From the NCBI RefSeq assembly GCF_900172375.1, contig NZ_FWFS01000011.1, positions 1 to 64,000 of the forward strand: a stretch of DNA of 64,000 nucleotides, given 5' to 3'. A program made the translations under genes and the position numbers. Below the pieces are notes generated by a model. It did not search any database and was not told the DNA's origin. It saw only the letters and a program-made list of their open reading frames with translations. Positions 32,836-37,766 of this stretch are shown one piece after another (the stretch's first letter is position 1; each line of letters opens with the position of its first letter). This DNA comes from Aquimixticola soesokkakensis. GTDB lineage: Bacteria > Pseudomonadota > Alphaproteobacteria > Rhodobacterales > Rhodobacteraceae.

Positions 32836-33612
32836 ATGAGTGACAAGACTATAGCTGAAATAGCAGAAGAGGTGAGCCTTTTGCTCCAGCTTGACCGCAC
32901 CCGTCACCAGGTTAGCAGCAAGGTGGATATGGCCGTTTTGGCGAATATTCCGGCCCATATCGCCTCGACCTTTGAAAAGGCAAACGCGATTGGCACGGAG
33001 TTGTCGCCAAACCAGGCCTATGACCTCATCAACAAGCGCGTGTCCGAAATTCAGGCGCAGGTCTATCTGATGCGCCTTGAGCTGGAAAACCGCGACCCGC
33101 ATGATCCGGCGAATATCTACGCTGACCCTATGGTGATTTCGGCCTACGGCGAGCGTCTTGAAGGCATGATCGCACAGCCCAAAAGCTTTACGTTCGGGCC
33201 CGAAATCCTGGCCGAAGGTTGGTATTCCAGAGAAATGTCGGGGGAAAGCAGCCATCGCTGGATGCGTCCGGCGGACATGTCGCTTGCCTGTGTGCCCCAT
33301 CTCGGGACGCTCGCGCAAACCCTGGAAATTCAGGGCTATGTTGTGCATGCCGAGCAGCTTGAAGGGCTGAGTATCCGTGCCGCCGGAAAAGAGGCGAAAA
33401 TCGCGGTGACCCCGAGCGGCAATGCGGCGCAGTTCACGGCGACTTTGACGCTGGATGCAAAAGACGTGAAATCGGCCAATTACCTGCCGGTCGAATTCCG
33501 GATGAGCAGCTTTAAAAAGCCCAATGAACAGGACAGCCGCCTGCTGGGGGCCAATATCAACCGCTTTACGTGCAAAAGCCTCCAAGAGGCCGCGGATGCC
33601 AGCACCTCATGA
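32836..33612 (+). CDS. Unknown protein of the polysaccharide block
   Basis: This 258-residue protein has no signal peptide or membrane segment. The N-terminal third is helical (EIAEEVSLLLQLDRTRHQV, NKRVSEIQAQVYLMRLELEN). The C-terminal half looks like a beta sandwich, with GWYSREMSGESSHRWMRPADM at about 136-156. That W-rich GWY...RWM pattern occurs in domains fused to polysaccharide glycosyltransferases, so a role in surface glycan synthesis is plausible. AGAGGG precedes the start, and the stop overlaps the glycosyltransferase start. I do not recognise a named family. Confidence 0.65.
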   Translation: MSDKTIAEIAEEVSLLLQLDRTRHQVSSKVDMAVLANIPAHIASTFEKANAIGTELSPNQAYDLINKRVSEIQAQVYLMRLELENRDPHDPANIYADPMVISAYGERLEGMIAQPKSFTFGPEILAEGWYSREMSGESSHRWMRPADMSLACVPHLGTLAQTLEIQGYVVHAEQLEGLSIRAAGKEAKIAVTPSGNAAQFTATLTLDAKDVKSANYLPVEFRMSSFKKPNEQDSRLLGANINRFTCKSLQEAADASTS

Positions 33613-34739
33613 AGGTCGCCGCAGTTTGTGATTTCCCGTATTGGGAGGGGCGTATCGGCTCGGCGGTCCGGATGGAAAGCCTGTGCCAGTCCCTGGCGCA
33701 GGTCTGTGATCTGAGCGTGATCTGCTCCTTGACCATCTCGAGCCAATATCAGGCAGGCATGGAGGCGGCGCCGTACACTTTGTATGATCGCAAGGCGCTG
33801 AAAAACGCCAATGAACTTGATCCGGGGCCGCCGATCGCCGGGGTGCGGCCCAACCGGCAGGTCACGGTCAACGGCGTGAAACGGCTGGTCGAAGCCGGCG
33901 GTTATGATGCGGTTTTGATCCCCTATTTCAACCGGTCCTGGATGATCGAACATATTCGCCCCGATATCTTGCGTATTGTGGATACGATCGATTGCCAGTC
34001 CCAGCGAGCGCGTTCTTTTGCCGCCCACGGGCTGACGCCGACCTTTCCGATGACAGCGCAAGAAGAAGGCGTTGCAATCGACCGTTTCGATGTCGCTTTG
34101 GCCATTTCGGACGAAGATCAGAACGAATTTTCGGCCTTCACCGACACGCCCGTGATTACCGCGCCGTTCCGGCTTGCGCCCAAGCCGATTTATGCAGCGC
34201 GCGAAAATGCAAGCGAAGTGTTGTTTATCGCCGCGCAAAGCGATGTGAACAACATGACGCTGGCCTATTTGATGGAAGAGATCCTGCCGTTGGTCCGGCG
34301 CCCCCTGACCCTGCATGTCGTGGGAAATGTAACCATTCCTGATAGTTGCCCGGACCATATCACGCTGGTGCGTCACGAGAATGTGTCGGATGTGGGCTGG
34401 ATTTACCGCTCTGTCGATCTGGCGTTGAACCCGACCTATGCCGGGGGCGGGATCAAGACCAAGACTTTGGAAGCGATGGCCTACGGTGTCCCTGTTTTGA
34501 CCTCGGACGAGGGCGCGCGCGGCCTGTCCGATCTGCTGCCTGGCGAGCTTGTAATCAATGACAAGGAAACCTTTGCCTACCGGATCGGCACTTTGCTGGA
34601 TGATCAGGACGGGCGTCGCCGGCTGTCCGAGCAAATCATCGCCAACATGCAGGCTGAGGATAACACAAGCTGGACCTCGACACTGGCCCTTGTTTTGCGG
34701 GCCCTGAAGGCGCGCCAAAAAGAGAAAGAGCAGGCATGA
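33609..34739 (+). CDS. Glycosyltransferase, GT-B fold (GT4-like)
   Basis: This 376-residue protein has an N-terminal acceptor half starting MKVAAVCDFPYWEGRIGSAVRM. The C-terminal donor-binding half carries EVLFIAAQSDVNN, HVVGNVTIPDS, DVGWIYRSVDLALNPTYAGGGIKTKTLEAMAYGVPVLTSDEGARGL; the GxGIKxKxLEAMA segment is the GT4/GT1 nucleotide-sugar site. It would add a sugar to a growing surface glycan in the cytoplasm. It overlaps both neighbours by four bases, forming a coupled three-gene unit. Acceptor and sugar are unknown. Confidence 0.85.
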   Translation: MKVAAVCDFPYWEGRIGSAVRMESLCQSLAQVCDLSVICSLTISSQYQAGMEAAPYTLYDRKALKNANELDPGPPIAGVRPNRQVTVNGVKRLVEAGGYDAVLIPYFNRSWMIEHIRPDILRIVDTIDCQSQRARSFAAHGLTPTFPMTAQEEGVAIDRFDVALAISDEDQNEFSAFTDTPVITAPFRLAPKPIYAARENASEVLFIAAQSDVNNMTLAYLMEEILPLVRRPLTLHVVGNVTIPDSCPDHITLVRHENVSDVGWIYRSVDLALNPTYAGGGIKTKTLEAMAYGVPVLTSDEGARGLSDLLPGELVINDKETFAYRIGTLLDDQDGRRRLSEQIIANMQAEDNTSWTSTLALVLRALKARQKEKEQA

Positions 34740-35911
34740 GTGAAAGCCCTCCCACCACCCGTGCATCTGTCTGCCAGCCGGTGCAGCCGCGCGCGGCCAA
34801 ACGGATCGTGTTTACGGGGGACTTCCTGCGCCCCTCGGGCGGGGGAATGCACCCCACGCAGCATGAGAATATCCGCTGGATCTATCAGCTGTTGAAAACC
34901 CCGCTGGAAATGGCCACCGGCCTGCCGACGGAAATTGTTCATTGGGACAACGACTGGCGCAATGGCTCGCGCCTGGACCGCGGCACGGTCGAGGCCGTGT
35001 ATCGAATGATGGGGCTGCGGGCGCAAATCCAGTCCTGGCCTTGGGTCTTTTCGGCAAAAACCCTTCCGGCCTCGGTCGAGGATCTATTTTTGCGGATGTT
35101 TTGCGACAGCATCGTCGTCGGTTTTGAACTGCCGCCCTACCTTGTGAACTTTCTGAACCGGCACAAAATCGGCTTTGTCGATTGTTCCCTGTCCCCTGTA
35201 CGCTTCATGGATGACGTCATGTTCGAAATGAGTTCGAACATAGAGGGCATCACACAGGCTCTGAAAACCTTTGCGGTAGGGGAAGATTATATTCGCCTGC
35301 AAGCCGGCATCATGTCCTCGAATGTTGCCAAGGGAAATCCGAACCCGCCAATGCCCAATAGCCTTCTGGTGATTTTGCAAACGCGTTTTGATAAGGTTGT
35401 GATCGAAAACAAGCGCTTTGTGACGGTGATGGAGCATCTTGATACGCTCAAATCCGTTGCACAGGATTACGATCATGTTCTGATCAAGGAACATCCGCTG
35501 GAAGGCCAGCCACAGACCCTTGAGCGTTTGCAGCGCTATCTGCCCCAGGCTCAGGCCACCAAGGATAATTTCTACCGTCTCGTCTCCCATAAAAATGTGG
35601 CAGGGGTTGCGGCCCTGTCGTCCAGCTGTGTGCTGGAAGCGACGTATTTCGGTCGCAAGGGGCATTATTTGTTGCCCGGATTTACCCCGGATACCTTTAC
35701 GGTTGGCCTTGAGGGTGTCCACATCGACGATGCCATCATTTGCCCGGATTTCTGGCGCGATATCCTCGCCGGCTTTCCCTGCCCGGTGACGCAAAAGGAC
35801 GGCTTGCGCTTGCCCAGCAAGGCGAACCGGTTCCGCAAGCAATTGCGGACCGCCTGGAGTTTCAACGAGCTTGATACAGATATTGCCGTGCAATGGGCGG
35901 CGAGCGCATAA
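34736..35911 (+). CDS. Putative surface-polysaccharide biosynthesis protein
   Basis: This 391-residue soluble protein has no clear named domain. KRIVFTGDFLRPSGGGMHPTQHENIRW at 22-48 and the later segments HVLIKEHPLEGQPQTLERL and NVAGVAALSSSCVLEATYFGRKGHYLLPG resemble capsular-polysaccharide proteins of the KpsS/CDP-glycerol-transferase kind. In those, an HP motif and an SSSxxLEA motif form the donor site. It begins in the ATGA of the glycosyltransferase gene. A glycosyl- or phospho-sugar transferase role in capsule or exopolysaccharide assembly is likely but not certain. Confidence 0.65.
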   Translation: MSESPPTTRASVCQPVQPRAAKRIVFTGDFLRPSGGGMHPTQHENIRWIYQLLKTPLEMATGLPTEIVHWDNDWRNGSRLDRGTVEAVYRMMGLRAQIQSWPWVFSAKTLPASVEDLFLRMFCDSIVVGFELPPYLVNFLNRHKIGFVDCSLSPVRFMDDVMFEMSSNIEGITQALKTFAVGEDYIRLQAGIMSSNVAKGNPNPPMPNSLLVILQTRFDKVVIENKRFVTVMEHLDTLKSVAQDYDHVLIKEHPLEGQPQTLERLQRYLPQAQATKDNFYRLVSHKNVAGVAALSSSCVLEATYFGRKGHYLLPGFTPDTFTVGLEGVHIDDAIICPDFWRDILAGFPCPVTQKDGLRLPSKANRFRKQLRTAWSFNELDTDIAVQWAASA

Positions 35912-35972: not shown

Positions 35973-37766
35973 ATGACATCTGCGAAGTTGCCGGCCAGCC
36001 CAACACGTCATTCGGTCTCGCCAGACCTGCACGGGGCGTTGTCGCATGTGCTCGACGGGGACGCGACGATCGCGCCTTTTCGCGCGCATCCACTGGTGAT
36101 CGGGCGCATTCCCCAGCTCAAAGCCGCTTATGCGCTGGCGGGCACGGGCCATGCATTGGAATTCGGTGTCTTCAAAGGCGAGTCGATCCGCGCGCTGGCT
36201 TTTGCCCATCCCGAGCGCCACTTCGTAGGGTTCGATTCCTTTAGCGGACTGCCCGAAGACTGGGTGCGCAGTGCGGACAGCACGTACCAAGCAGGGCATT
36301 TCGCCTTGCGCGCATTGCCCGATGTTCCCAAGAATGTGACGCTTGTGAAAGGGTTTTTCGAGGACACCCTGACGGATTGGCTGGCGCAAAACCCCGGGCC
36401 TGTTTCCTTCGTGCATATCGATTGCGACCTCTACGGCGGCTGTCGCTACGCGCTGGACAAGCTCACGCCACGGCTTGTGGACGGGGCTGTGATCGTGTTC
36501 GACGAATTATGCGATTGGGCGCAAGGCGGGGTCTATCCCAATTGGGAGGAGCACGAATGGCGCGCCTTGAAAGAATGGTTGCACGAGACCGGGTTTTGCA
36601 TGCGGATTTTGTCACGCGACGGGCAATTTTCCTGTGCGGTTCAGGTGTTTCGAACCCCGCCTTCGGCCTGGACGGCGAAACAAATCCACGCGTTTCTGTC
36701 GCAGGTCCGCTCTGCGGGCGAACGGGCGACAGCTCTGGCGTTCTTTGCGCAGGATTTCGATGCGACGCGCGCGCCGATCATCATCACCCACGCGCTTGCC
36801 ACATGGCAGCTTGAGGCAGGGGCCCCAAAAGCGGGTCTGGAGGTGTTGGAAACCGCGATTTCGCGATTGGACAAGCGCACGCCTGCCGACGTCCACGAAA
36901 TGTTCGACCTGTTGAAGATCGCGCTGCTGGTGGGCTGTGATCGCCTTGAGGCCGCAACCGAGATGCTGACCCGCCGGCTGCGCAGCAGTCCCAAGAATGT
37001 GGAGGCCTTGGCGCTTGGGGCCAAGCTGGCGCAAAGCCGTCGGGACTATGAAGCGGCCGCAGCGTATTTGCGCAAGGCCCATCACCTCAGCGGCAAGGCT
37101 GAATACGACAAACAGGCCCAGGCGATGGCGCAACTGGCGACAATCCGCCCCGAATTTCGCGCATCGGATTTCAGCGGCCTTCTGATCCAGCATCTGGTGG
37201 ACCGGCGGCGCTTTGAGACGGTTCTGGATGTCGGAAGCGGGGCGGGGGATCAGGCCAGAATGCTGCGTGCGCATGGCAAACGCGTGACCGAACTGGATTA
37301 CGGCGAAAGCCATTATTTCAAGCAAGCAACGCACCCGAGTGAATCCGATATTTTGCGCGGTGATTTTGTCACGATGCCGATTGCGCAGACATTCGACTGT
37401 GTCATCGCCTCTCACGTGCTGGAGCATCAGCCGAATGTGAACCTGTTTTTGCGCAAGGCGCATGCGGTTCTGCGCGAAGGCGGCGTTCTGGGGCTGTCCG
37501 TGCCGCCCCTCAAGCATCAGATTGTTGGCGGGCACCTGACGCTTTGGAATGCCGGACTGGTTTTGTACAATCTTGTTCTGGCCGGCTTTGACTGCCGCCA
37601 GCCCTGGATCCGCCGCTATGGCTATAATATTTCCGTGGTGATCGAAAAGAAAAGCATCACCCCAGAGGGGCTGGTTTTCGACAACGGCGACATCGACCGG
37701 ATTTCCCAATACCTCCCCGAAGGCTTTGGTGAAGGATTTGACGGCAATATTACCAGCCACGGCTGA
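35973..37766 (+). CDS. Fused double methyltransferase: TylF-like + TPR linker + class I SAM methyltransferase
   Basis: This 597-residue protein has three parts. Residues about 45-230 are a TylF/MacrocinOMT-like methyltransferase: ALEFGVFKGESIRALA, FVGFDSFSGLPEDW, FVHIDCDLYGGCRYALDKL and VFDELCDW. Residues about 245-390 are helical, TPR-like repeats (ATWQLEAGAPKAGLEVLETA, LEAATEMLTRRLRSSPKNVEALALGAKLAQ). Residues about 400-560 are a Methyltransf_11 domain (TVLDVGSGAGDQARML, DCVIASHVLEHQPNVNLFLRKAHAVLREGGVLGLSVPP). It probably puts methyl groups on sugars of the glycan made by the preceding genes. AGGACGAT precedes the start; the fusion looks intact. Confidence 0.85.
   Translation: MTSAKLPASPTRHSVSPDLHGALSHVLDGDATIAPFRAHPLVIGRIPQLKAAYALAGTGHALEFGVFKGESIRALAFAHPERHFVGFDSFSGLPEDWVRSADSTYQAGHFALRALPDVPKNVTLVKGFFEDTLTDWLAQNPGPVSFVHIDCDLYGGCRYALDKLTPRLVDGAVIVFDELCDWAQGGVYPNWEEHEWRALKEWLHETGFCMRILSRDGQFSCAVQVFRTPPSAWTAKQIHAFLSQVRSAGERATALAFFAQDFDATRAPIIITHALATWQLEAGAPKAGLEVLETAISRLDKRTPADVHEMFDLLKIALLVGCDRLEAATEMLTRRLRSSPKNVEALALGAKLAQSRRDYEAAAAYLRKAHHLSGKAEYDKQAQAMAQLATIRPEFRASDFSGLLIQHLVDRRRFETVLDVGSGAGDQARMLRAHGKRVTELDYGESHYFKQATHPSESDILRGDFVTMPIAQTFDCVIASHVLEHQPNVNLFLRKAHAVLREGGVLGLSVPPLKHQIVGGHLTLWNAGLVLYNLVLAGFDCRQPWIRRYGYNISVVIEKKSITPEGLVFDNGDIDRISQYLPEGFGEGFDGNITSHG

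Follow-up and report, generated by a model that had tools for sequence, protein, structure and literature searches.

Two different methyltransferase domains joined by a TPR-like linker in a protein of Aquimixticola soesokkakensis

Why would a bacterium join two different methyltransferase domains through a helical repeat in one chain, and what would the two heads methylate? The question is raised by a gene at 35973..37766 (+ strand) of the window, by which we mean the whole 64,000-nucleotide stretch of contig NZ_FWFS01000011.1 analysed here. The 597-residue product consists of a TylF-type domain, a TPR-like linker and a class I methyltransferase domain. A preliminary description, made from the sequence alone, had proposed that the protein methylates two positions of a sugar, or that its repeats count or hold a glycan chain.

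Architecture of the two-headed protein

The frame is uninterrupted from the ATG at 35973 to the stop codon at 37764-37766 (597 aa), and an AGGA motif is found four bases upstream of the ATG. A longer alternative ORF begins with TTG at 35871, but this start is less likely because of the AGGA ahead of the ATG and because the orthologues described below have 585-586 residues. The AlphaFold2 model of the full 597-residue protein (50-row alignment, mean pLDDT 91.8, pTM 0.81) comprises a Rossmann-type domain, nine helices in region 235-388 and another Rossmann-type domain. As Foldseek searches with the whole model returned mixed two-domain alignments, we relied on VIA-align for the domains and on a separate model for the linker. 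The presence of two different methyltransferase domains in one protein, as initially described, is borne out by Pfam, with Methyltransf_24/TylF and Methyltransf_11 all above their cut-offs, and the two motifs pointed out at that stage, VHIDCDLYGG and VLDVGSGAGD, are both found in the translated protein. The Pfam and NCBIfam libraries hold no name for such a two-headed unit, and no description of the architecture was found in open-licence PMC papers. The fusion is a new arrangement of known enzyme families.

The N domain (aa 40-228; 36090..36656, + strand) is of the TylF/CalS11 type, as indicated by Pfam, its fold and its conserved residues. Methyltransf_24 matches aa 62-178 with 45.8 bits (cut-off 26.3) and TylF (PF05711) aa 119-181 with 32.8 bits (cut-off 23), the latter match spanning merely positions 172-231 of the 264 of the profile. 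The best structural match in VIA-align is the TDP-rhamnose 3'-O-methyltransferase CalS11 (Z 18.3, rmsd 2.3, 172 residues aligned, 28% identity), and SpnH (Z 16.6) and NovP (Z 16.3) also match the fold. Enzymes of the TylF family are metal-dependent. D150, D177 and E178 are acidic residues of the N domain. In the profile alignment, the DxD motif of the family aligns with D150/D152 and the FDEL motif of CalS11 with F176-L179. By hand count on that alignment, D152 corresponds to Asp191 of CalS11, which PMC4760980 presents as the putative catalytic base. Residues E63, G65, D88, D150, D152, D177 and E178 do not vary across the 25 N rows, sequences hand-picked for the structure alignment from which the 29 C rows used below also come. 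With its SAM-site signature and the aligned catalytic Asp intact, the N head looks active, as far as sequence can tell.

The C domain (aa 391-597; 37143..37763, + strand) is identified as a second class I head by Pfam, its VLDVGSG motif and its conserved residues. Methyltransf_11 matches aa 418-506 with 55.6 bits against a cut-off of 21.2, and Methyltransf_23 and Methyltransf_25 likewise score above their cut-offs in the last third of the protein. All 29 C rows share D419, G421, G423, D475, H481, E484, H485, P511, P512, the GGH at 519-521 and N526. Two further positions are partly kept, G425 in 24/29 rows and D442 in 18/29, and the window protein has both. The positions of motif I are thus kept in both domains (25/25 N rows and 29/29 C rows), which answers the concern that one of them might lack SAM-binding residues. 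An inactive second domain is ruled out for the residues checked, all of which are present. No solved relative specific to the C domain was found, its structural matches being general class I enzymes.

Between the two heads, the linker (aa 235-388; 36675..37136, + strand) folds into nine helices according to the models and the alignment. Pfam TPR models score below their cut-offs on it (16.8 versus 23.5 for TPR_14, 18.5 versus 42 for TPR_CcmH_CycH). The linker modelled alone (four rows, pLDDT 87.1) has as its top VIA match a subunit of the APC/C (8a3t_J, Z 16.9), followed by a consensus TPR protein (9gzg, Z 15.9, 152 residues aligned, rmsd 3.3); it also matches MamA (3vty, Z 15.2). The proposed joining of the domains via TPR-like repeats is therefore upheld by the modelled fold, a superhelix of hairpins, and we use the term TPR-like rather than TPR because of the Pfam scores. 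Stretches of helical repeats were also seen by eye ahead of unpaired TylF-type domains at two other loci (L003 and L006).

A protein with the same N-TPR-C order was recovered in three further records, Rhodobacteraceae EL53, an uncultured Jannaschia and a Lentibacter MAG, with lengths of 585-586 aa. Since these records share the three-part protein, an assembly error or a chance fusion is ruled out. The architecture is rare, with a full-length match in 2 of 394 genomes of the family at E<=1e-25, the own genome included. Among the four proteins, identity amounts to 57-61% in the N part (40-228) and to 60-70% in the C part, and both ends of the fusion are, judging from the sequences, under constraint. 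At 18-31% identity, the linker is the least conserved region.

Gene neighbourhood and the putative glycan

The fusion gene is the last of four co-directional genes. The first (32836..33612, + strand) codes for a 258-residue protein that has no Pfam or NCBIfam match; it is conserved (50-66%) in four other Rhodobacterales, where it likewise opens the glycan block. It is followed by a gene for a GT4 glycosyltransferase identified by Pfam (33570..34739, + strand), whose 3' end overlaps the start of the next gene. The latter (34736..35911, + strand), directly upstream of the fusion, codes for a 391-residue protein with a weak, polysialyltransferase-like match (A-2_8-polyST) below cut-off, probably a glycosyltransferase of the GT-B type. 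Of the neighbours examined outside this operon, those upstream match AP_endonuc_2 and GFO_IDH_MocA in Pfam, and the one downstream codes for an SBF-like transporter. The surface-glycan setting assumed in the preliminary description is supported by this glycosyltransferase neighbourhood.

The three upstream genes form a block conserved in the same order in Pseudosulfitobacter (66-70% identity) and in Sulfitobacter S190, Roseovarius THAF27 and genome G110 (50-59%). In these four relative operons, gmd comes next, then a gene for a large glycosyltransferase (835-857 aa) and, at some distance, manC, so that the fusion occupies the position held there by gmd. Three plasmid versions of the operon additionally carry a methyltransferase gene, and the Pseudosulfitobacter and Sulfitobacter versions also have an annotated sulfotransferase gene. 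One version lies beside KpsF and Kdo genes, and those of Sulfitobacter and Roseovarius adjoin type I secretion genes. Genome G122 has in common with the window merely the GT4 gene (29% identity) and the 34736 gene (40%). In the genome of A. soesokkakensis itself, homologues of gmd (72%) and of the large glycosyltransferase (36%) are found on another contig, C21, near genes for an ABC-2 membrane protein and an ABC ATPase.

The family of the 34736 gene is rare: 3 of 147 relatives, counting this genome, have a match. A homologue (24.8% identity, E 2e-14) lies directly before a fusion of the same two domains in the reverse order, C-N, in Pseudomonas sp. 8AS (locus L028). There, an FkbM gene and the 34736 homologue precede the fusion, a gene for a two-domain GT2 protein follows it and a flagellin gene is found about 4 kb further on; the island also has aminotransferase and ACP synthase III genes. 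Comparisons of the 34736 product with the Capsule_synth protein beside a phage copy (L113) and with a Lysobacter glycosyltransferase (L025) gave no significant match.

The vicinity of flagellin raises the possibility that a protein, flagellin or some other secreted one, is the acceptor recognised through the TPR part, and that the two heads methylate its glycan. Caulobacter FlmG offers a precedent, an N-terminal TPR part joined to a GT-B domain, whose interaction with flagellin was assayed by two-hybrid in the work described in PMC7591256. The L028 island and the type I secretion genes next to the Sulfitobacter and Roseovarius operons point in the same direction, and the genome of A. soesokkakensis encodes a flagellin. 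However, the fusion in the Pseudomonas flagellin island has no TPR linker, and in A. soesokkakensis the operon and the flagellin gene are on separate contigs. We consider a protein acceptor doubtful.

The settings of the three orthologues are an argument against seeing the gene purely as part of a glycan operon. In EL53 (L021:7836-9593), the fused gene is inserted in the ribosomal superoperon, between adk and the gene for ribosomal protein S13, and in Lentibacter (L023:7932-9692) it is likewise within the ribosomal superoperon, between secY and the S13 gene. In Jannaschia it lies between short-chain dehydrogenase and CoA-transferase genes. No glycan genes were seen close to the fused gene in any of these three records.

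Recurrent pairing of the two domains in bacteria and phages

Such pairing extends beyond the N-TPR-C proteins. A genome scan that used a two-row alignment, with its search patterns placed in the N domain, gave 42 loci. Eight of them have both domains at thresholds of 80 bits for C and 60 bits for N: three N-TPR-C loci, four C-N loci and one with adjacent genes. The C-N fusions are single chains of 415-476 aa without a TPR linker, found in Lysobacter antibioticus (for which we chose the start codon), Lysobacteraceae 2PB, a Hyphomicrobiales MAG and Pseudomonas sp. 8AS. The gene of the Hyphomicrobiales MAG adjoins a gene for a phage-type endolysin. In Gilvimarinus, the two domains are encoded by two neighbouring genes.

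Among cellular genomes, at E<=1e-25, the profile of the C domain matched 4 of 385 genomes of the class, 2 of 398 of the phylum and 3 of 295 of the family, the own genome being included each time. In the 2.9 million viral contigs of IMG/VR, 99 C relatives were confirmed and 80 kept, with up to 54% identity; given collections of unlike size and searches of different types, the cellular and viral counts do not lend themselves to comparison as rates. With the Gilvimarinus C domain as query, 50,697 named phage records yielded two weak matches only (28.9% identity). Genes near the viral C copies include those for DNA polymerase B, Hsp20, portal, major head, sulfotransferase and Capsule_synth proteins, and with neighbours such as the portal and major head genes, several of the sampled contigs are clearly phage.

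Other contexts of the C domain were also encountered. A C domain is encoded on the pSymB plasmid of Sinorhizobium meliloti, beside glycosyltransferase and capsule genes. In Qingshengfaniella (L083:11986-14037), likewise on a plasmid, a C-type methyltransferase precedes a glycosyltransferase in one chain, and the start codon annotated for it falls downstream of where the C match begins. In some phage contigs, a family B DNA polymerase gene is followed by a C-type methyltransferase gene, as in L117, where the polymerase gene (303-2834) directly precedes a free-standing C-type gene starting at 2831.

In IMG/VR, with 80 loci kept per domain, both domains were found in 5/80 C loci and 2/80 N loci. 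Four phage contigs have directly overlapping gene pairs, in the order C then N in L158 and L169 and N then C in L171 and L172, the last two being near-relatives (69% identity for N, 83% for C); in L141-L143, the two domains are about 4 kb apart. The surroundings include, within about 4 kb, a T4-like portal gene in L171 and tail sheath and tail tube genes in L172, as well as a tail fibre gene about 3.4 kb upstream of the pair in L158 and a terminase gene about 2.7 kb downstream of it in L169.

Some of the adjacent genes deserve mention in their own right. The one immediately ahead of the N-C pair in L171 (2087-2968) matches Pfam Collagen (49.7 bits, cut-off 27.2), and its product is possibly a fibre protein and a candidate glycan carrier; the corresponding gene in L172 has a start resembling it. 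The 369-residue protein encoded directly before the C-N pair in L158 (4890-5999) appears by eye to have a short helical repeat followed by a glycosyltransferase, with no Pfam or PHROGs family match at the limits used. Unpaired phage TylF genes are found in similar cassettes (L175:4556-10077, L181, L187 and L195); one gene of the L175 cassette matches the heptose-phosphate adenylyltransferase family, and a gene in L187 has similar first residues.

Most phage copies are unpaired in the records examined, some of which may be fragments. Searches of whole records for chosen contigs found N in 4 of 50 phage C records and C in 0 of 50 unpaired phage N records, the latter set having no positive record and showing little by itself. 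As most of the phage copies examined are unpaired, each head can presumably work without the other. This solitary occurrence fits the idea that the heads methylate two unrelated substrates and that their fusion is merely a convenient co-regulation. What that idea hardly explains is that one TylF clade is paired recurrently, in both orders and in bacteria as well as phages, unless the heads share a substrate or a product, and we regard it as quite improbable. Repeated fusion or adjacency in either order substantiates the coupling of the two domains, and the occurrence of both orders suggests that the heads share a substrate or that one passes its product on to the other.

How often the coupling arose was addressed with trees of the two domains, from which duplicate loci of the window, EL53 and Qingshengfaniella were excluded beforehand. 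For N, 148 sequences were reduced to 91 by thinning at 70% identity and the 80 best-scoring rows used; for C, thinning at 75% reduced 98 to 64, L172 being among those removed. In the N tree (80 rows), all 13 paired rows fall into a single group that excludes the 67 unpaired ones; its support of 93/83 is moderate, below the 95/80 level of the tool. Within this tree, the N-TPR-C group of the window has a support of 100/97. In the C tree (64 rows), in which the bootstrap had not quite settled and the L083 branch is very long, the four N-TPR-C rows group together (99/96) and the C-N fusions are scattered elsewhere among phage sequences. Constraining the 12 paired C rows to one clade was rejected (p-AU 0.013), and the eight fused C rows alone, constrained together, gave p 0.038 in the AU test; the groups for these tests were named only after inspection of the tree. 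The searches also favour kin of the paired form because the profiles came from paired bacterial loci.

Since the paired N rows form one group and their C partners do not form one clade, the two domains were coupled, or their couplings reshuffled, on more than one occasion, or else N was lost several times. We read this as one TylF sub-clade having taken C partners more than once, or having swapped them; alternatively, N genes may have been lost from the phages that now hold C alone. It is tempting to go one step further and see here a mobile double-methylation module, in which this TylF sub-clade was repeatedly joined to a methyltransferase of a family carried by phages too, the pair methylating two positions of a glycan that would serve as a phage receptor or be borne by phage fibres. 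We deem this broader proposal unlikely.

A probable two-headed glycan O-methyltransferase

The explanation that we favour, with some confidence, is that the window protein is a cytoplasmic two-headed surface-glycan O-methyltransferase, both heads of which act on one glycan while the TPR spacer serves for docking. The TylF-type head would methylate a hydroxyl of a sugar, probably a deoxy-sugar, and the second head would act elsewhere on that sugar or on an adjacent residue of the glycan. The spacer would keep the heads together and would probably dock them onto the glycosyltransferases whose genes directly precede the fusion gene, or onto the acceptor. That the two heads decorate the same surface sugar chain is probable, and methylation of two positions of one sugar, as first envisaged, is plausible. 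A sugar hydroxyl as acceptor, a single product for both heads and docking by the TPR part are inferences; the acceptor could be other than a sugar. The two-headed account is the most economical.

As for the linker, the preliminary description had also suggested that the repeats count or hold the glycan chain, as in a chain-terminating methylation. A role in counting or measuring finds no backing here: a search with the linker profile and inspection did not find the TPR linker in the nine other paired loci, the linker is poorly conserved among the orthologues, its model has no long or extended coiled coil, with a longest helix of 17 residues, and neither a kinase gene nor a gene for a glycan exporter was found in the four-gene operon. 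A chain-length ruler is therefore unsupported. For a spacer that changes fast and whose profile matches no other paired protein among the loci compared, docking is a likelier role than that of a ruler.

The same observations bear on the resemblance to WbdD. A WbdD-type terminator would cap the non-reducing end of an ABC-exported polysaccharide, with the repeats as a ruler, and the window protein shares with WbdD a methyltransferase next to a helical spacer in a polysaccharide setting. The glycan operon, the version of it beside KpsF and Kdo genes and the ABC genes of contig C21 near the gmd and large glycosyltransferase homologues are compatible with such a function, and a TPR-like bundle was reported for one terminating glycosyltransferase (PMC11231755). 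Nevertheless, the rulers of the terminating enzymes described in PMC11231755 are coiled coils, and WbdD is presented there as having a kinase beside its methyltransferase and a coiled-coil ruler. The window protein has two methyltransferase heads, no coiled coil and no kinase family, as judged from Pfam at E up to 1 and the best 25 of 27 NCBIfam rows. Given also the variable linker and an operon in which no exporter gene was found, a terminator of this type is very unlikely.

Other known systems resemble the two-headed O-methyltransferase in part. FlmG and TPR-bearing capsule polymerases likewise combine a TPR domain and a glycan enzyme in one chain, and their TPR parts have been tied to protein contacts and processivity (PMC7591256 for FlmG, PMC11666461 for the polymerases), but they carry glycosyl- or phosphotransferase domains rather than methyltransferases. 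The L028 island resembles in setting the viosamine island of Pseudomonas syringae, with its aminotransferase, ACP synthase III, long GT2 gene and flagellin; there, according to PMC3927599, loss of vioM yields a terminal sugar with one methyl group less. VioM, of 241 aa (PMC3927599), is too short for two such heads, and the likeness noted here is one of setting. Its phenotype shows what an enzyme can do in an L028-like setting.

The N domain is akin to the TylF/CalS11/NovP sugar O-methyltransferases, as seen from the TylF match above cut-off, the CalS11 fold and the catalytic Asp. However, the matched solved chains of 250-283 residues have no space for a second head, whereas the group that contains the N domain described here is coupled to another methyltransferase. 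Phosphoethanolamine N-methyltransferase also has two class I methyltransferase domains in one chain that act in succession, on a phosphobase acceptor, and one such enzyme, AtPMT2 (5wp5), ranks 50th among the whole-model Foldseek matches. In contrast with the window protein, its domains are of different families and it has no TPR part.

Methyl groups on surface sugars can alter the recognition of a cell by phages and other partners. If the two domains do form a mobile module, the same chemistry would serve for receptor masking in the cell and for virion decoration in the phage. A module fused both ways, or split, in phages and bacteria would offer a direct handle on glycan modification. Close relatives of both heads are found in phage contigs, which suggests an exchange of genes for glycan methylation between phages and their hosts.
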